Below the pieces are notes generated by a model that ran no database searches, was not told where the DNA came from, and saw nothing but the letters and a program-made list of their open reading frames with translations. Position numbers and translations under genes: made by a program. Below, in pieces: positions 19,796-55,602 of a stretch of 64,000 bases of DNA. Positions within the stretch are counted from its first letter, which is position 1; each line of letters begins with the position of its first letter. This DNA is from Candidatus Dependentiae bacterium. Its GTDB lineage: Bacteria > Babelota > Babeliae > Babelales > Vermiphilaceae. The stretch is from the NCBI GenBank assembly GCA_040878395.1, contig JBBDMI010000003.1, positions 1-64,000 on the forward strand, written 5' to 3'.

Positions 19796-19930
19796 TTAGA
19801 GCTTAAAATTCCAAGCAACTGAGGTTTCCAATATTACCATTGCAGTTGCGATTTTAATAGTGTGTGCAAGCGAAAGATGTACATTAGGGGCTTTGATGTT
19901 TTCAGGAAGCAACGCCGGCTAATTAATGTT
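19796..19930 (-). pseudogene. duplicated 3' end of acpS
   Basis: This segment repeats the last third of acpS (21261-21380) at roughly 80-85% identity by eye. The encoded peptide P-A-L-L-P-E-N-I-K-A-P-N-V-H-L matches acpS exactly in that stretch, then diverges only slightly until past the acpS stop. The tryptophan codon before this stretch is a TAG here. There is no start codon, so it is a gene tail, not a gene. It lies directly downstream of the DUF4143 ATPase gene, so the ATPase gene is bracketed by acpS and this tail copy. Confidence 0.85.
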
Positions 19931-19971
19931 TTATTTAGAGGTTTTATTTTTGATTGCGATGTTTCTCCCGG

Positions 19972-21162
19972 TTAATTGTCTTGAAGTAAATCTTGATCTA
20001 TTAGATAGTTGACGTTATTCCAAGGAACAACAAAGCCCTTTGAACGCTTTTGTAACTGGTTGCCTCCATAAATGACTATTGGTTTTTGATGAGATTTTAT
20101 TTTTTCATTAAACCAAATAGTTGTATCAAAAAAACGATTATCCATGGTTTGAGATGCTTTAATTTCTACAGGAGTGATCTTGCCATAATGTTCAACAATG
20201 AGATCGACTTCTTTTTGATTGCTATCTCTAAAATAGGATACAACAGGATGGACATTAGTTGCATTATAGTTTTTTATCAGATCAACAATGACCATGTTTT
20301 CAAAAAGTGCGCCATATACATCGCGTTTTTTTATGATGATGTCTTGGTTTAAGCCCATTAATGTTGCTGCAAGGCCAACATCATAGAAATATAGCTTTGG
20401 TGACTTCGTTACTCTTTTGCCTAAATTGCTATGATAACTTGGTAATCTAAAAATAATAAAACTTGTCTCTAAGAGTGCCAACCAACTTTTTGCTGTGGCA
20501 GAGCCGATACCGCAATGCATAGCTAGATCGGTTATATTAAGGGGAGCGCCTACGCGTACAGCACATAATTGTATAAATTTTTTGAAGATAAGAATGTCGT
20601 CAATGTTACGTATGCTGCGAATGTCTCGTTCAATATAGGTGACCATGTAGTTTTGATAATATTCATGAGCGTTAATTTGTGGTTGATAAACGCGTGGATA
20701 AAAACCTTTCATTATTTGATGATCGACATTTTCTAAGAGCAGATCAGCACTTTTTAGCTCTTTGATTGAAAAAGGCAATAATGTATAGAAGTATACTCTA
20801 CCCGCTAATGATTCGCTTATTTTTTCATATGATAAAAAATTTTGAGATCCGGACAAAACATAATAGCCGGATTGGGGATTTTTATCTGCTTCGACTTTTA
20901 TCTGAGCAAATAGTTTTGGCGCATATTGTGCTTCATCTATAATGATGCCATGTTCATTTTTATATGTTTCAAGAAAACCCTTTGGATCGTTGTTGGCAAA
21001 AGTAAATATTTCATTGTCTTGCATGTCAATATATGTGTGCTTTTTGAAAATATGTTTTGCCAGGGTGCTTTTACCCGATTGACGAGGACCAACGATGGCA
21101 ACAACAGGTACTTGTTTTGCTCCTGCCAAAATTGCATTGCTGATGTCTCTTTTTATATACAT
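19972..21162 (-). CDS. DUF4143-type AAA-like ATPase (copy 2)
   Basis: The 396-residue product has an N-terminal P-loop G-P-R-Q-S-G-K-S-T near residue 26, Walker B I-I-I-D-E-A-Q, sensor L-S-G-S-Q-N-F, and a C-terminal DUF4143/nuclease-fold region with Y-F-R-D-S-N-Q-K-E-V-D and V-E-I-K-A-S. It resembles copy 1 (6114-7307) along its full length but has an intact Walker A. It lies downstream of acpS and is followed by a duplicated acpS tail, which suggests insertion as cargo. Its biological role is unproven; family members are abundant and often strain-variable. Confidence 0.85.
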   Translation of the reverse strand: MYIKRDISNAILAGAKQVPVVAIVGPRQSGKSTLAKHIFKKHTYIDMQDNEIFTFANNDPKGFLETYKNEHGIIIDEAQYAPKLFAQIKVEADKNPQSGYYVLSGSQNFLSYEKISESLAGRVYFYTLLPFSIKELKSADLLLENVDHQIMKGFYPRVYQPQINAHEYYQNYMVTYIERDIRSIRNIDDILIFKKFIQLCAVRVGAPLNITDLAMHCGIGSATAKSWLALLETSFIIFRLPSYHSNLGKRVTKSPKLYFYDVGLAATLMGLNQDIIIKKRDVYGALFENMVIVDLIKNYNATNVHPVVSYFRDSNQKEVDLIVEHYGKITPVEIKASQTMDNRFFDTTIWFNEKIKSHQKPIVIYGGNQLQKRSKGFVVPWNNVNYLIDQDLLQDN

Positions 21163-21260
21163 AACATCCCTTTTATGTTTATGAAAAGTATAGCATTTGC
21201 ATTATGAATTTCATAGGGTTTGTATATGTATTTTCATAGATTTAGCTGTTTTTTGCTTTT

Positions 21261-21677
21261 TTATTGGTTCTGAGAGGCTTCCAATAAAACCATCGCTGTT
21301 GCGATTTCAATAGTGTGTGTAAGCGAGAGATGTACATTAGGGGCTTTGATGTTTTCAGGAAGCAATGCAGGCCAATTGATCATGAGCATTGGCACGCCAT
21401 TCTTGTTTCGTTGTACTGTTGTATGTTTTTGTACCATTAATAATGTTTTTTTATTTTCAATGTTCAGCTGGGCGCACATTGCATGATATGCTTTAAAAAA
21501 TGCCTCACGAGCTGCAAAGCGAGCAGCAAAGCGTTCAGCGGAGGTCTGTTTGTTTTCATGTAAGCAGTATGTGATTTCATCTAAACTAAATATTTTTTGC
21601 AGTTGTTCAGAGCTTTTTTTATGCCAATCGGTAAAACGATGTACGTTAGTGGTATCTATGCCGATGCCTAAAATCAT
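21261..21677 (-). CDS. acpS: holo-[acyl-carrier-protein] synthase
   Basis: The 138-residue product matches AcpS, which moves 4'-phosphopantetheine from CoA to apo-ACP for fatty acid synthesis. The N-terminal G-I-G-I-D-T-T-N-V-H-R-F holds the metal-binding Asp. F-A-A-R-F-A-A-R-E-A-F-F-K-A contains the catalytic Glu/Lys helix. The C-terminus has the L-S-L-T-H motif (usually S-x-S-H). It overlaps comM by 4 bp (ATGA), so the two are translationally coupled. Its 3' third is duplicated at 19796-19930. Confidence 0.93.
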   Translation of the reverse strand: MILGIGIDTTNVHRFTDWHKKSSEQLQKIFSLDEITYCLHENKQTSAERFAARFAAREAFFKAYHAMCAQLNIENKKTLLMVQKHTTVQRNKNGVPMLMINWPALLPENIKAPNVHLSLTHTIEIATAMVLLEASQNQ

Positions 21678-23218
21678 TGTCTTTGCCTTTCAAGCGCTTG
21701 ATCTAATGAGCGATACATAATTGCTTCACGCATATGTTTTGCATCAATCATATCAGCGTTTGCCAAATCGGCAATAGTACGCGCAACTTTTATGATTTTA
21801 TGATAGCCACGCATGCTTAAATGCATTTTTTCAAATGCGAGTTTGATCAATTTTTCTGCTTCATCTGTCAATACACAATGTGTATCAACTTCATCTGAGC
21901 TCATCATGTTGTTGAATTTGTTATGTGTGCCAAAACGATGTTGTTGTTTTTCAATGGCTGTTTGGACCCCTTCGTATATTTTGGCAGAACTTGCTGATGC
22001 TGTTTGCGTATCTTTTATCATATCATATTCGATTGATTGCACATGCACTTGCAAATCAATACGATCGAGTAATGGCCCGGATAGTTTATTAAGGTACCGT
22101 TGAATTTGTTGTGGAGCACAAACACATGTTCTTTTTTTATCACCCCAATAGCCACATGGGCATGGATTGAGTGCGGCAACTAATAAAAAAGATGCGGGAT
22201 ATTCAATTGAATGTTTTACCCGTGAAATAGAAACTTTTTTATGTTCTAATGGTTGGCGCAGCACTTCTAACGTGTCACGTTTAAATTCAGTCAGTTCATC
22301 TAAAAAGAGAATACCGTTATGCGCTAAACTGATTTCTCCCGGTTGTGGGCATGAGCCGCCACCGACTAAACCGGCTTGTGAAATAGTATGATGTGGGCTG
22401 CGAAAAGGGCGTTCAATAACCAAAGGTTTGTCATGGAGTTTTCCACTGATAGAATATACTTTACTTGTTTGTACCACTTCATCAAAATGCATATCGGGCA
22501 TAATGGTTGCCAAACGTTTTGCGAGCATTGTTTTGCCGGCGCCGGGCGAGCCAATAAACAGAATGTTATGTCTGCCGGCCGCTGCAATTTGCAATGCACG
22601 TTTTGCCATGCGTTGACCTTTTACTTGGTCAAAGTCGATAGAGTAGTTACGGTTTTTTTTTATGTAATTGGCAAATTGGGTTTTTGTTGGTGCAATTGTT
22701 ATTTCATTGCGAATATAGCCGACAACTTCAGTTAAGTGATCAACGCCAATAATCTCTATGCCATCAATCAATGCAGCCTCTTTGGCATTTGCTTTGGGCA
22801 GTACAATGCGCTTCATGCCCATTTTTTTTGCATCAAATGCTATGGGCAATGCGCCTTTAATTGGTCTGACGCTGCCATCGAGCGAAAGTTCACCGAGCCA
22901 CAATGTTTCTTGTAAGAATTTTTTTTCGATATGAATTGCTTCGTCTGCTTTTAAGATGCCGATTGCAGCCGGAAGATCAAAGAGTGTGCCAACTTTTTTT
23001 AGATCTGCAGGAGCTAGGTTAACCACTATGCGTTTTGGAGGAAAACGAAAACCACTATTTTTGATTGCGCTGCTAATCCGATGTTCACTTTCTCTAATTG
23101 CTGTATCGGGTAATCCGACAATGATAAATTTGATCAAACCGTATGAAAGATCTACTTCTACTTCAACTTTGTGTGCATTAACCCCGATAGTCGTGGCAGA
23201 AAAAACTTTTGCATGCAT
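21674..23218 (-). CDS. comM: ComM/YifB family Mg-chelatase-like AAA+ ATPase
   Basis: The 514-residue product has the full ComM architecture. An N-terminal Lon-like/ChlI domain starts A-K-V-F-S-A-T-T-I-G-V. The central AAA+ module has Walker A G-S-P-G-A-G-K-T near residue 218 and Walker B I-L-F-L-D-E-L. A Cys cluster (N-P-C-P-C-G-Y and C-V-C) and a C-terminal helical Mg-chelatase domain follow. ComM is a hexameric helicase that extends branch migration during natural transformation. Its presence fits uptake and recombination of homologous DNA, relevant to the tail duplications in this window. It is the first gene of the operon with acpS. Confidence 0.92.
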   Translation of the reverse strand: MHAKVFSATTIGVNAHKVEVEVDLSYGLIKFIIVGLPDTAIRESEHRISSAIKNSGFRFPPKRIVVNLAPADLKKVGTLFDLPAAIGILKADEAIHIEKKFLQETLWLGELSLDGSVRPIKGALPIAFDAKKMGMKRIVLPKANAKEAALIDGIEIIGVDHLTEVVGYIRNEITIAPTKTQFANYIKKNRNYSIDFDQVKGQRMAKRALQIAAAGRHNILFIGSPGAGKTMLAKRLATIMPDMHFDEVVQTSKVYSISGKLHDKPLVIERPFRSPHHTISQAGLVGGGSCPQPGEISLAHNGILFLDELTEFKRDTLEVLRQPLEHKKVSISRVKHSIEYPASFLLVAALNPCPCGYWGDKKRTCVCAPQQIQRYLNKLSGPLLDRIDLQVHVQSIEYDMIKDTQTASASSAKIYEGVQTAIEKQQHRFGTHNKFNNMMSSDEVDTHCVLTDEAEKLIKLAFEKMHLSMRGYHKIIKVARTIADLANADMIDAKHMREAIMYRSLDQALERQRQ

Positions 23219-38581: not shown

Positions 38582-40057
38582 TTGCGATATACCCGAGAAA
38601 CGAAGGTCGGCATTTTTGTTTTGGCTGCAATTGCAGTATTTGGCTATATGAGTTTTTATCTTGGTATGTTTCGTTTTGATCATGATCAATATGTTCGTCA
38701 TACCTTGTATTTTCAAGATATCTCAGGATTGCTCAAAAAAGCTGAAGTAAAAATAGCCGGTGTCAATATTGGTTGGATTCATGATATTTCATTAGTTGAT
38801 AAAGATGGCATGTGTGCACGTGCTGATGTTATGATTGATAAAGCTTATCATTTGTATCAAGATGCATATGGCGTTGTGCGTCAAGAGGGCATTATAGGGC
38901 CGGTTTATCTTGAAATTGTGCCGGGTGATCCATCGTTGCCGCAACTTATGCCGGGAAGCTCATTGGTCCGTCCGCAGACAGAGCCTGCTTCGGTCGATGA
39001 ATTGATGCGGAGTTTTAAAGATATTGCAACAGAGATACATGAAATTGCAAAGTCAGTAAAAGATGCATTAGGCACAGATCAGCAGGTTAATGAAATAACA
39101 CATGTTGTCTCAGGGGTAAACCATGTAGTTGATCAGCTTAACACACAAGTGTTGCCCGCATTTACTGAAAGTGTACAAAATATTGCTCAAGTTATTGATC
39201 GTGATTTTGGTCGGTTCGCACAACGAGCAGAAGAAACTGCTGATTGTCTCGATGCGGCATCGGATCATATGGTACAAGGATTCGAAGAGGTCAATGCAAT
39301 TGCGCGAGACATTAATGCCGGCAATGGCTTTATGGGTAAAATGATGCAGGATGAACAGATCTATAACAATGTTCGTTTTTGCACAGATCAAGTTGCACAT
39401 GCTTTTGACAAATTTTCTGATCTTTATTTTACGTATGATGGTCATGTTGAGAATATGTTCGAACAGGCTTCATTTTCATGCTTTAAAAATGCTAAAGGGA
39501 TTTTTAATGTGCGTATTTATCCGCGGCCTGATTATTTTTATTTAGTTGGTGTAACGACTTCTCAGCAGGGTTACATTCGTAGAACAACAACATTGAGAGA
39601 TTTCACGGATGACTGTTTTAATGAAGTATGCTCGGATGAGCAGCTTCCTGAATGGGCAAAATATCAATATATTTTCAATGAAAACAGGCAACGCATAAAG
39701 CGCAATGCATTTAAAGTTGATTTACAGTTTGGTAAAGTGTTCAATTATGTTGCATTGCGTGCCGGTTTGATTGAAGGAACCGGCGGATTTGCGGCCGATC
39801 TTTTTGTGCCATACTCTGATCGCATTGGATTGATTTCTACCTTTAAAATGTATGATTTCAGAGGGCAAAATCGCATTGACGATGAACGACCGCACCTCAA
39901 ATGGATCAATCGTATTTTCTTATTCGATACGGTTTATATCGCATTTGGTTTTGATGATTTTGTCAGTAAATGTGACAAATCAGTTTTCCTTGGTGCCGGT
40001 TTTAGATTTGGCGATGAAGATATCAAATACTTATTGCCAAATTTTGTAGGGACTTAA
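38582..40057 (+). CDS. mlaD: MlaD-family (MCE domain) protein
   Basis: The 491-residue product starts at TTG, with AAGGAA upstream and no nearer ATG that keeps the N-terminus. A membrane anchor (V-G-I-F-V-L-A-A-I-A) precedes an MCE domain (F-Q-D-I-S-G-L-L-K-K-A-E-V-K-I-A-G-V, then G-P-V-Y-L-E-I). A long helical region and a C-terminal beta region end F-V-G-T. MCE proteins form hexameric lipid shuttles in the periplasm with an MlaE/MlaF ABC transporter, which is not seen here. The last 75-108 bp of this gene are repeated at 41734-41841 and 43638-43712. Confidence 0.88.
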   Translation: MRYTRETKVGIFVLAAIAVFGYMSFYLGMFRFDHDQYVRHTLYFQDISGLLKKAEVKIAGVNIGWIHDISLVDKDGMCARADVMIDKAYHLYQDAYGVVRQEGIIGPVYLEIVPGDPSLPQLMPGSSLVRPQTEPASVDELMRSFKDIATEIHEIAKSVKDALGTDQQVNEITHVVSGVNHVVDQLNTQVLPAFTESVQNIAQVIDRDFGRFAQRAEETADCLDAASDHMVQGFEEVNAIARDINAGNGFMGKMMQDEQIYNNVRFCTDQVAHAFDKFSDLYFTYDGHVENMFEQASFSCFKNAKGIFNVRIYPRPDYFYLVGVTTSQQGYIRRTTTLRDFTDDCFNEVCSDEQLPEWAKYQYIFNENRQRIKRNAFKVDLQFGKVFNYVALRAGLIEGTGGFAADLFVPYSDRIGLISTFKMYDFRGQNRIDDERPHLKWINRIFLFDTVYIAFGFDDFVSKCDKSVFLGAGFRFGDEDIKYLLPNFVGT

Positions 40058-40098: not shown

Positions 40099-40359
40099 TT
40101 AGCCTTGAGTCTCTTGGTAGTCTCCTCGCACTATTTGATTAGGATGACCTCCTCGCACTAATGGACGATTCATTCTTTCATCTCGTGGACTCACGTACCC
40201 GCCTCTTGTTATAACTAAATTGCCTAAACTTCCATACTTAGCCCCAGTTAGTTCTTTTTTATTACCTTGAGGTAGAGATTGTTTAAGCTGGGTGCCCAAT
40301 TTTGATGCAAATACGCCAGATGTTATGCACAGCAATGACAACATTAATAGTTTCTTCAT
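40099..40359 (-). CDS. exported hypervariable peptide 1 of the island
   Basis: The 86-residue product has a signal peptide (M-K-K-L-L-M-L-S-L-L-C-I-T, cleavage after V-F-A) nearly identical, also in its DNA, to those of the genes at 41230, 41886 and 43815. The mature part of about 67 residues is basic and Gly-rich, unrelated to the other three, and ends E-T-Q-G. AGGAAA precedes the ATG. Upstream lies a conserved promoter block with a 10-G tract. A secreted effector, adhesin fragment or toxin peptide would fit, but the function is unknown. Confidence 0.75.
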   Translation of the reverse strand: MKKLLMLSLLCITSGVFASKLGTQLKQSLPQGNKKELTGAKYGSLGNLVITRGGYVSPRDERMNRPLVRGGHPNQIVRGDYQETQG

Positions 40360-40388
40360 ATTCGTTTCCTTTTTTATGAAGGTTTGTA

Positions 40389-40545
40389 TATTTACGTATC
40401 TAACCTTATGTTATCAATTGGGGGGGGGGTGAATGCAATGATTTGATTGAAAAGTCATGATTTACAGGGAAAAATGATCAAAATAGGTGTCTCTTTTTAC
40501 TGACAATTCATGCTGATTTAAAGTGCAATTTTACATCAGTATGAA
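40389..40545 (-). promoter_or_regulatory. promoter block 1 with 10-G tract
   Basis: On the minus strand TTGATA (40412-40417) and TAAATA (40389-40394) are spaced 17 bp. Two bases outside the -35 box is a run of ten G on the plus strand (40420-40429), followed by a conserved box of about 70 bp including GATTTACAGGGA. The same order recurs at 41526, 42158 and 44141. Such homopolymer runs are prone to slippage; a length change would alter the spacing between the -35 box and the upstream box. Confidence 0.65.
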
Positions 40546-40547
40546 TT
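40505..40547. terminator. conserved hairpin in block 1
   Basis: Arms starting at 40505 and ending at 40547 pair imperfectly. The equivalent hairpin in block 2 (41645-41687) is a perfect 18-bp stem. At the sixth pair a G-C in copy 2 is A-T in copy 1, a compensatory change, so the stem may be under selection. It may separate the peptide promoter from the RHH/RelE promoter. Confidence 0.5.
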
Positions 40548-40580
40548 CCTTATTGTTTAATCATATCTATTTTGAGCTCG

Positions 40581-40610
40581 TTGACACAAAGTGTGCAAAA
40601 GTGATACACT
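40581..40610 (+). promoter_or_regulatory. promoter and possible operator of the RHH/RelE pair
   Basis: TTGACA and TACACT are spaced 18 bp. An interrupted palindrome (ACAAAGTGT ... ACACTTATTTGT) overlaps both boxes, the usual place for autoregulation by an RHH antitoxin. It lies 46 bp before the antitoxin start. Confidence 0.65.
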
Positions 40611-40656
40611 TATTTGTATGATAAGTAAAGGTTGTTTCATGCATTGAGGAGTGAAT

Positions 40657-40878
40657 ATGCCAACTAATAAACCACGGTTTAATATCACCATGGAGCCGGA
40701 AATGGCAGATCATTTGAATAAATTAGCAAAAAAGAGATCAATTTCAGCTTCAAAGTTGGTGCAAGAGTTGGTTGCTGATGCTTTAGATCGTTATGAAGAT
40801 ATGGCGCTTTCAGAATTGGCAGATGAGCGCGAAACAGTGACTCAAAAAGTTGTTGCGCATGATGATGTTTGGAAATAA
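40657..40878 (+). CDS. ribbon-helix-helix antitoxin
   Basis: The 73-residue product starts at an ATG six bases after GAGGA. It has an N-terminal strand (R-F-N-I-T-M-E-P-E) followed by two helices (A-D-H-L-N-K-L-A-K-K; S-A-S-K-L-V-Q-E-L-V), the CopG/RHH DNA-binding fold. The acidic C-terminus would bind the toxin. It overlaps the RelE gene by about 20 bp and has its own promoter with a palindromic operator. Confidence 0.78.
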   Translation: MPTNKPRFNITMEPEMADHLNKLAKKRSISASKLVQELVADALDRYEDMALSELADERETVTQKVVAHDDVWK

Positions 40879-41146
40879 AACAAAGTTATTTGCGATAGTA
40901 TACTTGGCAGATGTGCAGAAAAAGGATATTCCATCGCTGCCTGCATCGGCAAAAAAAATGATCCAAAAAGCGATTGAACAACGATTAATGATTGATCCGA
41001 TCGGATACGGCAAGCCATTGCGTTATAGTTTGAAAGGGTATCGCAGATTGCGTGTTGCTGATTACCGCGTGGTATATAAAATTGATCAAGAAAAAGCTCA
41101 AGTTATTGTTATTGCAATTAAACATCGTAAACAAGTGTATGATTAA
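40859..41146 (+). CDS. RelE/ParE-family toxin
   Basis: The 95-residue product (from the first of three in-frame ATGs) has the RelE-type C-terminal pattern: P-L-R-Y-S-L-K-G-Y-R-R-L-R-V-A-D-Y-R-V-V-Y, then V-I-V-I-A-I-K-H-R-K-Q-V-Y. RelE toxins cut mRNA in the ribosome, while ParE members poison gyrase; the basic R-x-x-R core and H-R-K-Q-V-Y end favour a RelE-like role. It is coupled to the RHH antitoxin upstream. Confidence 0.82.
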   Translation: MMMFGNKTKLFAIVYLADVQKKDIPSLPASAKKMIQKAIEQRLMIDPIGYGKPLRYSLKGYRRLRVADYRVVYKIDQEKAQVIVIAIKHRKQVYD

Positions 41147-41171
41147 AAATGTTTTGTTACGGAGTAAAGAG

Positions 41172-41195
41172 CCAAATTTTATAGAGACATAAAAA
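41172..41195 (+). repeat. degenerate mlaD tail copy (boundary B)
   Basis: CCAAATTTTATAGAGACATAA resembles the last 21 bases of mlaD (CCAAATTTTGTAGGGACTTAA), with three differences. It lies immediately before a terminator hairpin and an exported peptide gene, exactly where the longer tails C and D lie in their units. Confidence 0.55.
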
Positions 41196-41227
41196 GGGAA
41201 TGCAATGATTTATGCATTCCCTTTTTT
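41191..41227. terminator. bidirectional terminator between RelE and peptide 2
   Basis: GGGAATGCA pairs with TGCATTCCC, extended by A and T runs on both sides, around an 8-nt loop. The A-rich left and T-rich right flanks fit termination in both directions. Confidence 0.85.
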
Positions 41228-41229
41228 AT

Positions 41230-41496
41230 TTAGCCTTGCTGCTTTTTTTTCTCTGCATATTGTCTATCAAAAGCTGCAATAGCTGCATTAGGGTCATACT
41301 TAGTAGCAGATCCGCTTTTTCCGTATTTAGCGTCTCTTGCAGCTATTGCCCGTCTATACTGCTCATCACCAGTGATGGACTCGTGCATCGCATTAAGATT
41401 TCTACCTACTACTTCAACCCGCACTGTTCCTGCTGTTCCTCCTGCAAATGCACCAACTGTTACACACAGCAACGACAATATTAATAGTTTCTTCAT
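41230..41496 (-). CDS. exported hypervariable peptide 2 of the island
   Basis: The 88-residue product has the shared signal peptide (M-K-K-L-L-I-L-S-L-L-C-V-T, cleavage after A-F-A). The mature part of about 70 residues is charged and helical (Y-R-R-A-I-A-A-R-D-A-K-Y) and ends K-Q-Q-G. It is unrelated to the mature parts of peptides 1, 3 and 4. Its upstream block carries the longest G tract (12). Confidence 0.75.
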   Translation of the reverse strand: MKKLLILSLLCVTVGAFAGGTAGTVRVEVVGRNLNAMHESITGDEQYRRAIAARDAKYGKSGSATKYDPNAAIAAFDRQYAEKKKQQG

Positions 41497-41525
41497 ATTC
41501 GTTTCCTTTTGTATGAAGGTTTATA

Positions 41526-41641
41526 TATTTACGTATCTAACTTTATGTTATCAATTGGGGGGGGGGGGTGAAAGCAATGATTTGATTGAAAAGTCTTCAT
41601 TTACAGGGAAAAATGATCAAAATAGGGTGTCTCTTTTTACT
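41526..41641 (-). promoter_or_regulatory. promoter block 2 with 12-G tract
   Basis: TTGATA (41549-41554) and TAAATA (41526-41531) are spaced 17 bp on the minus strand. Twelve consecutive G occupy 41557-41568. The following box up to about 41640 is almost identical to blocks 1 and 4. No cargo gene follows this unit; the next mlaD tail begins at 41734. Confidence 0.65.
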
Positions 41642-41644
41642 GAT

Positions 41645-41687
41645 AATTCGTGCTGATTTAAAGTGCAATTTTAAATCAGCACGAATT
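41645..41687. terminator. perfect 18-bp hairpin in block 2
   Basis: AATTCGTGCTGATTTAAA pairs perfectly with its complement across a 7-nt loop. Homologous to the hairpin at 40505-40547, with one compensatory base-pair change. It is followed by ATTT but no long T run. Confidence 0.6.
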
Positions 41688-41733
41688 ATTTGCTGTTTAA
41701 TCATATAAAGTTCCAATGAGCGTTGCGCTTTAG

Positions 41734-41841
41734 TTTGATGATTTTATTGGCAAGTGTGACAAATCAGTTTTCCTTGGTGTCGGTTTTAGATTTGGTGATG
41801 AAGATATCAAATACTTATTGCCAAATTTTGTAGGAACTTAA
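41734..41841 (+). repeat. mlaD 3'-end duplicate (boundary C, 108 bp)
   Basis: This aligns without gaps to the last 108 bp of mlaD (39950-40057), with differences mainly at its left end. The reading frame is preserved to the stop (F-D-D-F-I-G-K-C-D-K-S-V-F-L-G-V), but a TAG immediately precedes it and there is no start. It is followed by a terminator hairpin and an exported peptide gene, as after mlaD itself. Confidence 0.93.
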
Positions 41842-41879
41842 AAAAGGGAGCTCTATGTTTTTTAGAACTCCCTTTTTTT
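41842..41879. terminator. terminator after mlaD tail C
   Basis: GGGAGCTCTA pairs with TAGAACTCCC (one mismatch), with A and T runs on the flanks. The sequence is a variant of the hairpins after mlaD and tail D. Confidence 0.8.
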
Positions 41880-41885
41880 AATGAA

Positions 41886-42128
41886 TTAACCTTGACTGTA
41901 GTTTTGACGAGTTATTGATATTGAGTTACTTGGGGCTGGTTCCATTCCCGCTGGAATATCTGACCTAGTGCCATATTCAGTCTTACCAGTTTTTGGGTTT
42001 CTCCAACTATATATTTGGACACCATGTATTTCTTTTGCGCGTTGATCGCCAGGAGCTTTGTTAGGAAGTAGGGATGCAAATGCACCAACTGTTACACACA
42101 GCAATGACAACATTAATAGTTTCTTCAT
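41886..42128 (-). CDS. exported hypervariable peptide 3 of the island
   Basis: The 80-residue product has the shared signal peptide (M-K-K-L-L-M-L-S-L-L-C-V-T, cleavage after A-F-A). The mature part of about 62 residues (K-E-I-H-G-V-Q-I-Y-S-W-R-N) is unrelated to the others but also ends in Q-G (N-Y-S-Q-G). The upstream block has a 9-G tract. Confidence 0.75.
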   Translation of the reverse strand: MKKLLMLSLLCVTVGAFASLLPNKAPGDQRAKEIHGVQIYSWRNPKTGKTEYGTRSDIPAGMEPAPSNSISITRQNYSQG

Positions 42129-42157
42129 ATTCGTTTCCTTTTTTATGAAGGTTTGTA

Positions 42158-42250
42158 TGTTTACGTATCTAACCTTATGTTATCAATTGGGGGGGGGTGA
42201 ATGCAATGATTTGTGTGAGAATCCATGATTTACAGGGAAAAGTGGGCTAT
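42158..42250 (-). promoter_or_regulatory. promoter block 3 with 9-G tract
   Basis: TTGATA (42181-42186) and TAAACA (42158-42163) are spaced 17 bp. Nine G occupy 42189-42197. The upstream box is the most diverged of the four G-tract blocks, but GATTTACAGGGA is kept. Confidence 0.6.
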
Positions 42251-42263
42251 CTTTTTATAGTAA

Positions 42264-42292
42264 TTGTAAAAAATAACAGCAGCTGATATAAT
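42264..42292 (+). promoter_or_regulatory. promoter for DUF4143 ATPase copy 3
   Basis: TTGTAA and a perfect TATAAT are spaced 17 bp, about 100 bp before the ATPase ATG. Another TATAAT lies nearer to the gene, near 42340. Confidence 0.5.
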
Positions 42293-42393
42293 TTACAAAA
42301 AATGATTAAGATAAGAAAATCTTTGAATGCAAAAATATAATATGGATATTTTTACTTAGTCTTATATCTATTGGCGATTTACAGGGAGGTTAT

Positions 42394-43620
42394 ATGTTTA
42401 AACGAAACATTAAGCCGGTTTTAGAAAAAGCCCTTAAACGGAGCCCTATTGTTTTGCTTAACGGAGCACGTCAGGTAGGGAAATCAACTTTAGCAAAAGA
42501 ATTGTTAAAAGAAGGGGGGTTTAATTATCTTACATTTGATGATGAAACGGTTTATTTGGCAGCAAAATCAGACCCAACAAGTTTTATTGAAAACATTCAA
42601 AAGCCGGTTATTATTGATGAAGTGCAGCGTGTGCCGGAGCTATTTTTACCGATAAAAAAAGATATTGATAATAATAGGGTTCCTGGGCGATATCTTTTGA
42701 CCGGTTCGGCCAATCCATTATTAATTCCACGCTTAGGTGATTCTTTGGCTGGGCGTATGGAAATTATTGATTTAATGCCATTGTCTCAAGGTGAAATTTT
42801 AGGTATTACTGAAACATTTATCGATACAGCTTTTAGTGATAAGCCATTTAAATGTCCAAAAAAGACGTTATCAAAGAAGGAGCTTTATCATAAAGTTTTA
42901 GTTGGGGGTTATCCTTCAGTTCAGGGCGGGGATGAAGAGGCTGTTGAGGCATGGATGCGTTCATATATTAATCTGTTGTTGCAGCGTGATATTAAAGATT
43001 TGGCACAGATTGAAAAATTAACCGAATTGCCCAATTTATTAAGAGTATTGGCTTTTCGAACATCAAACTTGCTTAATGTTGCAGAGGTTTCGCGTGAAAT
43101 GAAAATGGTTGCCCCTACGGTACATCGTTATATTGCACTTTTAGAAACAATTTTTATTATTTCATTGCAATTATCATGGCATACAAATTTGGGTTTACGT
43201 TTTATCAAATCTCCAAAAGTTTTTTTTATTGATTCCGGTTTGCTTGCTTATCTATTGGGTATCAATATGGAGCGAGCTTTAATTGATAGTATGCAGATGG
43301 GCAAAGTGCTAGAAAATTTTATTGTTGGAGAGTTAAAAAAACAGGCGACATGGAGCAAGATAAAACCTGAAATACATCACTTGCGTACTTTTGAAGGTAA
43401 AGAGGTCGATATCATTTTAGAGGATCGCACAGGCAAAATCGTTGGCATCGAGATCAAGAGTGGTGCAAGCGTGAATGCAAGTGCATTTAAAGGGTTAAAA
43501 TACTTGCAAGAAAAAGTTCCCGATAAATTGGTTAAAGGCATTGTTTTATATGGTGGTTCTGAGTGCGTACCGTTTGGTAAAAACATGTTTGCATTACCAA
43601 TTAATGTTCTTTGGGAGTAA
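42394..43620 (+). CDS. DUF4143-type AAA-like ATPase (copy 3, island cargo)
   Basis: The 408-residue product has Walker A G-A-R-Q-V-G-K-S-T near residue 25, Walker B V-I-I-D-E-V-Q, sensor L-T-G-S-A-N-P and a C-terminal region with G-K-E-V-D-I-I-L and V-G-I-E-I-K-S-G, the nuclease-fold signature of DUF4143. GGGAGG precedes the ATG. It is more distant from copies 1 and 2 than these are from each other. It sits between mlaD tails C and D as cargo of peptide unit 3. Confidence 0.85.
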   Translation: MFKRNIKPVLEKALKRSPIVLLNGARQVGKSTLAKELLKEGGFNYLTFDDETVYLAAKSDPTSFIENIQKPVIIDEVQRVPELFLPIKKDIDNNRVPGRYLLTGSANPLLIPRLGDSLAGRMEIIDLMPLSQGEILGITETFIDTAFSDKPFKCPKKTLSKKELYHKVLVGGYPSVQGGDEEAVEAWMRSYINLLLQRDIKDLAQIEKLTELPNLLRVLAFRTSNLLNVAEVSREMKMVAPTVHRYIALLETIFIISLQLSWHTNLGLRFIKSPKVFFIDSGLLAYLLGINMERALIDSMQMGKVLENFIVGELKKQATWSKIKPEIHHLRTFEGKEVDIILEDRTGKIVGIEIKSGASVNASAFKGLKYLQEKVPDKLVKGIVLYGGSECVPFGKNMFALPINVLWE

Positions 43621-43637
43621 AGAAGATAATGGATTGA

Positions 43638-43712
43638 TTTTTCCTTGGCGCCGGTTTTAGATTTGGCGATGAAGATATCAAATACTTATTGCCAAATTTT
43701 GTAGGAACTTAA
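43638..43712 (+). repeat. mlaD 3'-end duplicate (boundary D, 75 bp)
   Basis: It differs from the last 74-75 bp of mlaD at about two positions. The frame is preserved to the stop (F-L-G-A-G-F-R-F-G-D-E-D-I), though a TGA precedes it. It directly follows the ATPase gene and is followed by the same AGAGCTCT-type terminator as mlaD. Confidence 0.93.
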
Positions 43713-43746
43713 AAGGGAGCTCTATAAAATGTAGAGCTCTCTTTAT
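43713..43746. terminator. terminator after mlaD tail D
   Basis: GGGAGCTCTA pairs with TAGAGCTCTC around a 7-nt loop, then TTT. The loop sequence TAAAATG is identical to that of the hairpin after mlaD. Confidence 0.8.
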
Positions 43747-43755
43747 TCAATCACT

Positions 43756-44111
43756 TTAGCCGGCAGAAGAATATTGATATACTCCTGGACCCGTAGGAAA
43801 GGGTTTTTTTTCTTTTATTTTTTTTCTTTTATTTTACCAGGATATTTTTTCTTTAATGATTCAACGCAAGACTTTTCCCATATATATCGACTAGGTGGCG
43901 ATCCCATCCCTTGCCAAGGCCCTGAGAACCGTTCCTTGCGGCATGATTGCAGTTCTTGATGAACTATAGGATCATCTGAGTGATAACGGGTAGTAGTATA
44001 TCCTTCGGGTGCATCGGGTGCAGGAGCTTTGTGACGAGTTATTGTTAAAGGGCTTGATCTTAATGAACTCAATGTCATGCACAGCAATGACAACATTAAT
44101 AGTTTCTTCAT
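43756..44111 (-). CDS. exported hypervariable peptide 4, apparently frameshifted in a poly-A tract
   Basis: The continuous frame (43815-44111) gives 98 residues: shared signal peptide (M-K-K-L-L-M-L-S-L-L-C-M-T) and a basic mature part ending K-I-K-E-K-K. Near the end lie two tandem copies of a 14-nt unit (T, A4, G, A8). Adding one A to the first A8 run restores a frame through K-I-K-E-K-K twice, then P-F-P-T-G-P-G-V-Y-Q-Y-S-S-A-G to a stop at 43756. That stop lies just after the terminator, where peptides 1-3 also end. The gene may switch its C-terminus by slippage, or be freshly broken. Confidence 0.65.
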
Positions 44112-44140
44112 ATTAGTTTCCTTTTTTATGAAGGTTTATA

Positions 44141-44252
44141 TGATTACATATCTAACATTATGTTATCAAATTGGGGGGGGGGTGAAAGCAATGATTTGAT
44201 TGAAAAGTCTTCATTTACAGGGAAAAATGATCAAAATAGGGTGTCTCTTTTT
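44141..44252 (-). promoter_or_regulatory. promoter block 4 with 10-G tract
   Basis: TTGATA (44164-44169) and TAATCA (44141-44146) are spaced 17 bp. Ten G occupy 44173-44182. The upstream box to about 44250 is nearly identical to block 2. Confidence 0.62.
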
Positions 44253-44360: not shown

Positions 44361-44597
44361 ATGAAAAAAGTAAACGTAACCTTCTCAATTCCACCTGAAA
44401 CTCATCAAGAACTACAAAAGTTAGTGGGGCGAAAAAAGATGAGTGCTTTTGTAGCAGCTTTGATTGATAAAGCACTCGAGGATAAAAAAAAACAGCTCAA
44501 GCGAGCATATCAAGAAGCTGCGAATGATCCTGATATACAAAAAACGTTTGAGCAGTGGAGTGCTACTGATGCTGATCTGGGAGATTGGGAATGGTAA
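44361..44597 (+). CDS. RHH-type antitoxin of a MazF module
   Basis: The 78-residue product has a strand-helix-helix N-terminus (V-N-V-T-F-S-I-P-P-E-T, then H-Q-E-L-Q-K-L-V and S-A-F-V-A-A-L-I) and a C-terminal tail ending D-L-G-D-W-E-W, typical of antitoxins that bind MazF-like toxins. GGGGGTG lies upstream of the ATG. Its stop overlaps the toxin start. Confidence 0.8.
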   Translation: MKKVNVTFSIPPETHQELQKLVGRKKMSAFVAALIDKALEDKKKQLKRAYQEAANDPDIQKTFEQWSATDADLGDWEW

Positions 44598-44929
44598 AAC
44601 AGTTTCCCAAACGAGGAGATATTTTTTGGGTTAAATTAGACCCCACGCTCGGTAGCGAAATAAATAAAACACGCCCTGCAGTTATTGTTTCCAATGATTT
44701 ACAAAACGAGTATTCAAACATCGTGATTATTGCTCCGCTTACCAGTAATATTAAACGTAAGTTACCATTTCACGTGTCTATCGAAGTAGAAGGAAAGGAA
44801 GGGCGTATTCTGATTGATCAAGTTCGTGCTATTGATAAAAGAAGATTGGCAAAGCAGATGGCAATCTGTGAACTGCAAACCATGATTGCAATTGATAAGG
44901 CATTAAAGTTGGTGTTTAATTTGATTTAG
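44591..44929 (+). CDS. MazF/PemK-family endoribonuclease toxin
   Basis: The 112-residue product has the MazF pattern: R-G-D-I-F-W-V-K-L-D-P, G-S-E-I-N-K-T-R-P-A-V-I-V-S-N-D, I-I-A-P-L-T-S and a C-terminal I-L-I-D-Q-V-R-A-I-D. MazF toxins cut mRNA at short motifs. I start at the ATG overlapping the antitoxin stop rather than a TTG two codons earlier. It is cargo of peptide unit 4. Confidence 0.88.
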   Translation: MVKQFPKRGDIFWVKLDPTLGSEINKTRPAVIVSNDLQNEYSNIVIIAPLTSNIKRKLPFHVSIEVEGKEGRILIDQVRAIDKRRLAKQMAICELQTMIAIDKALKLVFNLI

Positions 44930-54030: not shown

Positions 54031-54609
54031 ATGAAAAAAGCAGTAAAGGTAAATCGGTTCATTTGGATTGATTGCGAAATGACCGGTCTTGAAATACAAA
54101 AGGATGTATTACTTGAAATAGCAACGATTATTACTGATGTTGACCTTAATATCATCGCTGAAGGTCCTGAATTGGTGATTCATCAATCAGATAAACATTT
54201 GAATGCGATGATTCCACTTGTGCGAGACATGCACAAAAAATCCGGATTAACAGAAGATGTCCGTTCTTCTGTGGTTTCATTGGATGAGGCTGAAAAACAA
54301 ACATTTGAGTTTATTCAAGAATATTGCAAAAAAGAAGCGGGTGTTCTTGCGGGTAATACCGTTTGGCAGGATGCTCTTTTTTTAAGAAAATATATGCCGC
54401 GCATTACCAATTTCTTGAATTATCGTATTGTTGATGTCAGTTCGGTGAAAGTATTGGTTAATCAATGGTATCCAAAAGATCCTTATACTAAATTTGAAAA
54501 AGCAAAAACACATAGAGCTCTTTCTGATATTCGTGAATCTATTGCAGAGTTGCGTCACTATAGGAAGTACTTTTTTAGAGTCGATTCTGTAATGATGAAA
54601 GAATCATAA
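54031..54609 (+). CDS. orn: oligoribonuclease
   Basis: The 192-residue product is a DEDDh exonuclease: W-I-D-C-E-M-T-G (motif I), a central N-T-V-W-Q-D (motif II region) and H-R-A-L-S-D-I (motif III). Orn degrades 2-5-nt RNAs, including pGpG, in the cytoplasm. The length is close to the usual 180. The last 33 bp are duplicated exactly at 55570-55602. Confidence 0.93.
   Translation: MKKAVKVNRFIWIDCEMTGLEIQKDVLLEIATIITDVDLNIIAEGPELVIHQSDKHLNAMIPLVRDMHKKSGLTEDVRSSVVSLDEAEKQTFEFIQEYCKKEAGVLAGNTVWQDALFLRKYMPRITNFLNYRIVDVSSVKVLVNQWYPKDPYTKFEKAKTHRALSDIRESIAELRHYRKYFFRVDSVMMKES
54577..54609 (+). repeat. orn tail, left copy of the 33-bp direct repeat
   Basis: The last 33 bases of orn, including its stop codon, are identical to 55570-55602. 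The two copies are 993 bp apart and bracket the GIY-YIG gene and the palindromic repeats. Confidence 0.95.
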
Positions 54610-54623
54610 GCTAAAGTTTTGCT

Positions 54624-54911
54624 ATGCATCAATACTACGTTTACATTTTGTGTTCTAAAAAATATGGGACTTTATATATCGGCGTTACAAATGACATAGC
54701 GCGTAGAATTTATGAACACAAGCACAAACTTGTTCCTGGATTTACATCTAAATATGGTATTAATGAGTTAGTCTATGCTAAAGAATACCGTTATATCAGT
54801 GAAGCGCTTTTGCATGAAAAAATGTTAAAACGTTGGAAGCGTGCTTGGAAGATTCGCTTGATTGAGGAGTCAAATCCTGACTGGATAGACCTTTATTACC
54901 ATTTAAATTAA
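54624..54911 (+). CDS. GIY-YIG nuclease domain protein (YhbQ/UvrC-N-like)
   Basis: The 95-residue product begins Y-Y-V-Y-I-L-C-S with the partner motif L-Y-I-G-V-T-N-D, then A-R-R-I-Y-E-H and a helical end. This is the single-domain GIY-YIG nuclease family. Members are common and often found with dispersed palindromic repeats. It lies 14 bp after orn, between orn and the palindrome array, and is bracketed by duplicated orn tails. Confidence 0.88.
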   Translation: MHQYYVYILCSKKYGTLYIGVTNDIARRIYEHKHKLVPGFTSKYGINELVYAKEYRYISEALLHEKMLKRWKRAWKIRLIEESNPDWIDLYYHLN

Positions 54912-54980
54912 TTGTCTCATGAGCGAATTCTATATCCTTGCTCTTTTATATTCTTTTCTTAGTGGAAGATTGCCTTTCTT

Positions 54981-55008
54981 TGTCATTCCTGCGGAGGCAG
55001 GAATCCAT
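54981..55008. repeat. REP-like palindrome (forward copy)
   Basis: This is TGTCATTCCTGCGGAGGCAGGAATCCA, the same element as at 33595. The open frames read through it are chance translations. Confidence 0.8.
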
Positions 55009-55109
55009 AAAAGATTGTTTATTATATTTTGTCACCTCTGTGCAGGCCTGTGTATTCACCCACATTTTATTCTTAAAAAATATACCTTTTTGTTTTAGAC
55101 TTTTTCATA

Positions 55110-55139
55110 TTCCTAACTCGCGCTTTCCTAACTCGCGCT
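55110..55139. repeat. 15-bp tandem duplication
   Basis: TTCCTAACTCGCGCT occurs twice head to tail with no spacer. Confidence 0.85.
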
Positions 55140-55152
55140 AAATTCTCCGTCC

Positions 55153-55200
55153 TGTCATTCCTGCGTAGGCAGGAATCTATAGTAAATGAAATAAATTCTT
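55153..55200. repeat. REP-like palindrome with extension (arm 1 of long inverted repeat)
   Basis: The palindrome plus a 20-bp extension (TATAGTAAATGAAATAAATT) is repeated in inverted orientation at 55515-55563, with one difference over about 46 bp. Confidence 0.85.
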
Positions 55201-55282
55201 TAAAAAATATTCTTTTTTGTTACTTGTAATTGTCCTTATATAGTTTGTAATTTCTATGCTATTTAATCGTAAAAGTTTTTTA

Positions 55283-55309
55283 TGGATTCCTGCCTTCGCA
55301 GGAATGACA
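55283..55309. repeat. REP-like palindrome (reverse copy)
   Basis: This is the reverse-orientation copy of the palindrome, ending GGAATGACA. Only single-copy sequence lies between it and 55153-55200. Confidence 0.8.
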
Positions 55310-55400
55310 GGGGGAGAGAGGCTTTGTTATTTTGTATGATAATTATTTTGAAAGTAATTTCTTCTAAAACAAGCTTTAAAATTAAATTCGTCTCAAATTA

Positions 55401-55441
55401 TTATTTAAAATATTGTAAAAAATGTGGGAAATGCATAGGCA
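55401..55441. repeat. 41-nt dispersed repeat, copy 2
   Basis: It matches 10-50 at 35 of 41 positions in the same orientation. No open frame with a usable start spans it convincingly. Confidence 0.5.
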
Positions 55442-55514
55442 CAGACAAGGATCCATAAAAAAGTCTGCAGAATCAAATGACATAGATGTTGTAAATTATA
55501 TAAAAGTTTTTTCT

Positions 55515-55563
55515 AATGAATTTATTTCATTTACTATAGATTCCTGCCTGCGCAGGAATGACA
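55515..55563. repeat. REP-like palindrome with extension (arm 2 of long inverted repeat)
   Basis: It is the reverse complement of 55153-55200 with one change in the palindrome centre. The two arms are about 315 bp apart and could form a large stem. Confidence 0.85.
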
Positions 55564-55569
55564 GAGAGG

Positions 55570-55602
55570 AGAGTCGATTCTGTAATGATGAAAGAATCAT
55601 AA
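55570..55602 (+). repeat. orn tail, right copy of the 33-bp direct repeat
   Basis: These 33 bases are identical to the orn 3' end and overlap the last two codons of priA (Leu and stop). This suggests that orn and priA originally converged here with overlapping stops, and that the 54610-55569 segment was inserted later. The gap 54912-55569 holds only the palindromes, the 15-bp duplication and the 41-nt repeat. Confidence 0.95.

Follow-up and report, generated by a model that had tools for sequence, protein, structure and literature searches.

A DUF4143 ATPase gene between acpS and a second acpS tail in Candidatus Dependentiae: a candidate one-gene cassette carrying a replacement gene end

Gene order and a direct repeat at the acpS locus

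The window analyzed here is a stretch of 64,000 nucleotides from a Candidatus Dependentiae bacterium (GenBank assembly GCA_040878395.1, contig JBBDMI010000003.1, positions 1 to 64,000 of the forward strand). Its source genome is referred to as G000 and related genomes by handles of the same form; contigs and loci are numbered with C and L, respectively. On the minus strand of the window, comM (23218-21674) is followed by acpS (21677-21261), by a gene for an ATPase (21162-19972) and by a partial copy of acpS. The features of the locus are as follows.

21674-23218, minus strand: comM
21261-21677, minus strand: acpS, the complete target gene (Pfam ACPS, E = 5.5e-11), following comM
21274-21380, minus strand: T, the tail segment joined to acpS, 107 bp and 88.8% identical to 19821-19927; presumed foreign and restoring the gene
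21163-21250, minus strand: presumed left end of the cassette, with the ATPase promoter and TATGAAAATTCATA-like repeats, recognized by DNA similarity to ATPase loci of G002 and G009
19972-21162, minus strand: the cargo, an AAA_14 ATPase with a DUF4143 (PD-(D/E)XK nuclease-like) domain by Pfam, matching the PADLOC candidate defence family PDC-S01
19821-19927, minus strand: T', the second copy of the acpS tail, with one TAG, found by repeat comparison; presumed native and displaced

The repeat (E about 5e-30) is far above chance expectation. Its two copies are in direct orientation and flank the ATPase gene, which is thus bracketed by acpS and an acpS tail as the first-pass annotation of this DNA had described. 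That annotation also reported about 35 codons kept in frame with a Trp codon changed to TAG, and this agrees with the comparison of INWPALLPENIKAPNVHLSLTHTIEIATAMVLLEA with IN*PALLPENIKAPNVHLSLAHTIKIATAMVILET, in which the frame is intact for 35 codons and one TGG has become TAG. The proposed extent, the last third of acpS through its stop at 19796-19930, had to be narrowed: the duplication is real, but 19796-19820 has no homology to acpS, and the matching stretch stops 13 bp short of the end of the acpS stop codon. The copy lacks that stop, and its frame continues to another ending, TSVAWNFKL*. The adjacent comM is 85% identical to that of G001, which belongs to the same genus.

The ATPase-DUF4143 gene and its upstream region

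The ATPase scores 95.1 bits against AAA_14 (cut-off 27) and 159.7 bits against DUF4143 (cut-off 28.1), passing both Pfam cut-offs. Its Walker A and Walker B motifs and residues E288, E318, D320, E333 and K335 are invariant among 54 aligned relatives, and the catalytic E...D...ExK motif residues are 98-99% conserved among 93 relatives, a pattern from which a PD-(D/E)XK nuclease is predicted. The full-length structure was modelled with high confidence (pLDDT 92.8). Because the ATPase domain dominated the fold search with the whole protein, we modelled the C-terminal 135 residues separately (pLDDT 87); the top matches were McrC, Hjc, Bax1, Cas4 and DdmD, all of them weak, with E-values of 0.003 or worse. 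A sequence search of solved structures returned P-loop matches only. We found no description of AAA_14-DUF4143 or PDC-S01 proteins, the candidate defence families that this ATPase matches, as mobile cassettes in the open-access papers searched, a single one of which names DUF4143.

The source genome encodes seven DUF4143 genes. The nearest orthologs of the ATPase are in G001 (83% identity), G009 (68%) and G002 (65%); none of them adjoins acpS, and the subfamily has different gene neighbors in each of these genomes. The G002 and G009 loci share about 88 bp of the DNA that precedes the ATPase gene. This similarity begins at about 21250-21238, approximately 11 bp past the acpS stop, where the moved unit probably has its left edge. 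In three genomes the genes of this DUF4143 subfamily are directly preceded by repeated TATGAAAATTCATA-like palindromes (window 21163-21250; L072, L073), which resemble a putative operator for self-regulation. Different short repeats precede other DUF4143 genes (L071 9460-9560; L089 9860-9910).

Tail copies behind other genes

At about ten target genes we observed the same layout: an intact gene, cargo just past its stop codon, and then a second tail of that gene. The cargo includes DUF4143, AbiEi/AbiEii, GIY-YIG, ankyrin and TPR genes, and seven genomes or more have matching geometry (G000, G001, G002, G009, G042, G045 and G046). The third target gene in the window, named by eye as an orn-like oligoribonuclease gene, has the following surroundings.

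54031-54609, plus strand: orn-like gene, with T at 54577-54609
54624-54911, plus strand: GIY-YIG gene (Pfam GIY-YIG, E = 3.4e-14), beginning 15 bp past the orn stop
55570-55602, plus strand: T', a 33 bp copy of the orn tail with 100% identity, which ends at the stop and overlaps the 3' end of priA

Between the GIY-YIG gene and T', at 54980-55560, there is a dispersed inverted repeat with a CATTCCTGC..GGCAGGAATC motif. Outside the window, the individual cases are these (target gene, then cargo).

G009, 435-aa gene, DUF4143: 66 bp, 98.5% identity; T' starts 4 bp past the DUF4143 stop, with a terminator-like hairpin behind it
G046, 290-aa gene, DUF4143: homology to +2, terminators beyond
G002, 277-aa gene, DUF4143: tail copy
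G045, 184-aa gene, DUF4143 on the opposite strand: tail copy
G002, GNAT gene, AbiEi-AbiEii (L109 7460-11398): 128 bp tail copy, 95%
G042, radA-like gene, ankyrin gene: tail copy, 92%
G009, mnmE-like gene, secreted gene: tail copy
G002, 236-aa gene, cargo other than DUF4143: tail copy
G000, 336-aa gene, TPR gene (L082 2860-5273, contig C7): 159-168 bp tail copy, 93-95%, beyond the TPR gene

Every coding difference between the GNAT tail copies of G002 is synonymous, and a DUF4143 gene adjoins this locus (L109 7460-11398).

The second target gene in the window is more complex, and its tail is repeated within an array.

38582-40057, plus strand: target gene of 491 aa (MCE-like by eye)
40651-41146, plus strand: RHH/ParE toxin-antitoxin pair
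41734-41895, plus strand: tail copy 1, 84%, terminator included
42394-43620, plus strand: second DUF4143 gene, flanked by tail copies 1 and 2, with a G001 ortholog at the same place
43639-43747, plus strand: tail copy 2, 92%, beginning about 20 bp past the DUF4143 stop
44585-44929, plus strand: PemK/MazF-like toxin gene

These tail copies extend beyond the stop codon and are members of a tandem array that also contains small secreted genes. The secreted proteins form a tandem family (MKKLLMLSLLC...) with poly-G tracts upstream (window 40100-44250; L089 8345-13184), and in the window the array at 40100-44250 interleaves this family with the ParE and PemK/MazF toxins, the DUF4143 gene and the tail copies. 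The array is excluded from the clear single cases considered below.

The flanks of DUF4143 genes and of other genes were compared across about 1.6 Mb of sequence from related Candidatus Dependentiae. In these loci, which were picked around DUF4143 and acpS so that the rates are not genome-wide, direct repeats across the gene were found at 27 of 88 DUF4143 genes and 7 of 177 control genes (P = 4e-9), tight flanking repeats at 11 of 94 and 14 of 697 (P = 4e-5), and short copies of a neighbor gene's tail at 11 of 91 and 9 of 520 (P = 2e-5), respectively. About 70% of DUF4143 genes have no flanking repeat, including one adjacent to acpS (G002) and one adjacent to orn (G034), and 17 more stretches of the source genome (about 330 kb, partly overlapping) contained no tail copy. 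Several flanking repeats were rejected as cassettes: that at L137 reflects tandem DUF4143 genes, those at L072, L079, L088, L089 and window 40100-44250 belong to tandem secreted-gene families, and those at L085, L122 and L143 are full paralogs.

Boundaries of the repeats and divergence of the two tails

The repeats measure 30 to about 170 bp. In most single cases T and T' cease to match no more than 6 bp from the stop codon (0, 0, +1, +1, +2, +2, -1 and -6); for acpS and the 336-aa gene the match ends at -13. In contrast, true tandem duplications extend beyond stop codons (L072 by +119, L088 by +83 and L079 by +150), and repeated gene starts in the same data, unlike the tail copies, extend into promoter regions. 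The other edge is similarly regular: in same-strand single-gene cases T' begins no more than about 50 bp from the cargo stop.

The two tails differ mainly at synonymous positions. In 11 cases there are 56 synonymous and 36 nonsynonymous differences (61% synonymous), where 28% would be expected under neutral decay (P = 3e-11) and 43% if only T were constrained (P = 5e-4); the best-preserved cases give a ratio of 21:5 (P = 1e-4). The acpS pair taken alone, with 7 synonymous and 5 nonsynonymous differences, has a weak bias that is not decisive. Prophage e14 in E. coli icd, used as a positive control, gives 10:2, with homology through stop and terminator. The predominance of synonymous differences suggests that the two tails diverged as parts of two working genes. 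The second tail was therefore probably not copied in place, and one of the tails probably came from another lineage together with the cargo. The earlier suggestion that an element leaves or carries a copy of the gene end is thus better matched by "carries". No donor was found for T, and the acpS genes of G001 and G002, with only 50-65% protein identity, are too diverged to polarize T against T'.

Vacant sites and exchange of cargo

The first-pass annotation proposed that relatives free of the ATPase should have a single acpS tail, followed directly by the DNA that lies beyond 19796 here. The single tail was borne out: a second acpS match exists only in the source genome, and the extra tail is present in 0 of 42 relatives with an acpS match. 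The proposed continuation was not, since in G001, which has no ATPase at acpS, the downstream DNA differs from that of the window. For the GNAT gene and the 435-aa gene, likewise, a second, tail-only match occurs solely in the insert-bearing genome. The cleanest empty-site evidence is that from orn and priA. In G007 and G027 the end of orn overlaps the end of priA exactly at the position that T' has in the window, where T' overlaps the end of priA and orn itself is 960 bp away, past the GIY-YIG gene. The convergent orn-priA junction is an insertion hot spot in its own right (window 54609-55597; L193-L212): depending on the relative, the gap measures between -26 and about 1310 bp, and many relatives have an occupied gap with no tail copies.

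Cargo and target recombine freely, with no fixed pairing. The gene behind orn is a GIY-YIG gene in G000, an ankyrin-like gene in G001 and a DUF4143 gene in G034; acpS carries different DUF4143 genes in G000 and G002, the latter without a tail copy; and GNAT carries either AbiE or DUF4143. The occurrence of one cargo subfamily at different targets, and of one target with different cargo, is evidence against a fixed-site integrase and favors recombination via a shared tail.

Origin of the second tail

On balance, and with modest confidence, we favor the view that the ATPase gene entered as a one-gene cassette at the 3' end of acpS, bringing a replacement tail from another lineage by integrase-free recombination, and that such events are recurrent in Candidatus Dependentiae. 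Incoming DNA would pair with the resident gene through the tail that both share, by recombination rather than by site-specific integration. The incoming tail (21274-21380) would complete the resident acpS, and the ATPase gene with its own promoter would follow just past the stop codon of the completed gene. The original tail (19821-19927) would be displaced to the far side, where it would decay. The other end of the cassette may have been joined inside the resident tail, or the whole may have integrated by a tail-duplicating crossover. In the same manner small accessory genes (DUF4143 ATPase-nucleases, toxin-antitoxin pairs, GIY-YIG, ankyrin and TPR genes) would settle directly behind other genes. 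The first-pass annotation had recognized the signature of an element integrating at a gene 3' end. The recurrence of the layout at about ten genes, the lack of extra tails among the 42 relatives and the location of the ATPase orthologs elsewhere uphold that reading, but integration machinery belonging to the element finds no support.

Homology-facilitated illegitimate recombination is a possible route, as one homologous and one illegitimate end would give the cassette layout (PMC3240628). The outer ends are then expected to be random, whereas here T' starts near the cargo stop, and illegitimate joining at one end alone leaves this distance of at most about 50 bp unexplained. The presence of a ComEC-family match in the source genome (C12:51859-52311, the sole one there) speaks for the cassette view, but a stop codon interrupts the matched region, and natural competence is uncertain.

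Judged by its layout, the closest known arrangement is that of the mobile ORFs of fungal mitochondria, described in Allomyces atp6 and in Glomus atp6, atp9, cox2 and nad3, where a foreign C-terminal part completes the gene, the ORF comes next, and the native C-terminal part is displaced beyond the ORF (PMC3630166). The two systems share the order of complete gene, ORF and second C-terminal part, the use of several different target genes and GIY-YIG among the ORF types (PMC3630166); the completing tail is probably foreign here as well. The mobile ORFs are, however, mitochondrial and driven by homing endonuclease cleavage, while the present inserts lie on bacterial chromosomes and mostly carry no known homing endonuclease. 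A related reading would make the DUF4143 ATPase-nuclease a bacterial tail-carrying homing element, which cuts genes in their last third and installs itself with a replacement tail, toxin-antitoxin and other small genes using the same route. We regard this as rather unlikely. A nuclease motif is present in DUF4143 and absent from the other cargo, and the fact that cargo without a nuclease has the same layout weakens the case for insertion driven by the ATPase-nuclease itself.

A textbook example of a tail-carrying insertion is prophage e14 in E. coli icd, and 3' ends of the mnmE and icd type are known integration sites. The inserts could be remnants of integrase-bearing elements of the e14 or satellite type that restored the gene tail and then lost all but their defence-type cargo, an origin that we consider unlikely, if the least so of the alternatives. 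The layout at icd (icd/icdC) has the same signature, with a tail carried through to the stop, a displaced native tail and mainly synonymous differences, and cargo such as AbiE and DUF4143 of the PDC-S01 type is typical of defence genes on integrase-bearing elements. Yet e14 is about 15 kb long, encodes intE and xisE and has one fixed target, while the inserts described here consist of one or two genes at many unrelated targets, with one cargo subfamily at different ones. The acpS insert contains the ATPase gene only, in agreement with the initial observation that no integrase is seen, and none was found in the inserts read, very young ones included (orn at 100%, the G009 case at 98.5%). The only two tyrosine-recombinase genes of the source genome, on C9 and at C7:78104, both lie outside the inserts and are presumably XerC/XerD.

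Duplication of the gene tail in place, either as a long target-site duplication or as a tandem duplication that encloses the cargo, is improbable. Ordinary tandem duplications do occur in these genomes, as in the small secreted gene families and the array at 38582-40057, but they overrun the stop codons at which cassette edges lie, and the tails of the cassettes are too synonymous in their differences for a fresh, unselected T' (P = 5e-4 even with constraint on T alone; 21:5, P = 1e-4). A transposon with target-site duplication was rejected, as the repeats are 30 to about 170 bp long with mainly synonymous differences and the acpS insert contains no transposase. That common accessory DUF4143 genes came by chance to lie in intergenic gaps beside tail copies that are unrelated debris would accord with the minority of DUF4143 genes that have repeats and with the orn-priA gap as a hot spot that lacks tail copies in many relatives; the enrichment over control genes and the recurrence of one geometry make this very improbable. 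We give slightly less credence still to an assembly artefact in which strain variants of one gene end were joined around the cargo. The genomes are fragmented, several are named as metagenome-assembled, and T and T' differ as strain or species variants would, but the same geometry recurs in at least seven genomes, and some copies have decayed, as the TAG in the acpS copy illustrates.

Significance for Candidatus Dependentiae

This gene-insertion habit of Candidatus Dependentiae is apparently undescribed, as judged from the open-access papers searched. The relatives in which the arrangement recurs are amoeba-associated bacteria. If the cassette interpretation is correct, these bacteria would acquire accessory or defence-like genes singly and with no integrase, by a harmless landing behind essential genes, and the cassettes would be a bacterial counterpart of the tail-carrying mobile ORFs of fungal mitochondria. 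Were the homing interpretation true, essential genes such as acpS would become safe landing sites. A second gene tail with mainly synonymous differences and an edge at the stop codon would be a diagnostic usable on any genome, and the scatter of DUF4143 genes in Candidatus Dependentiae genomes would be explained.
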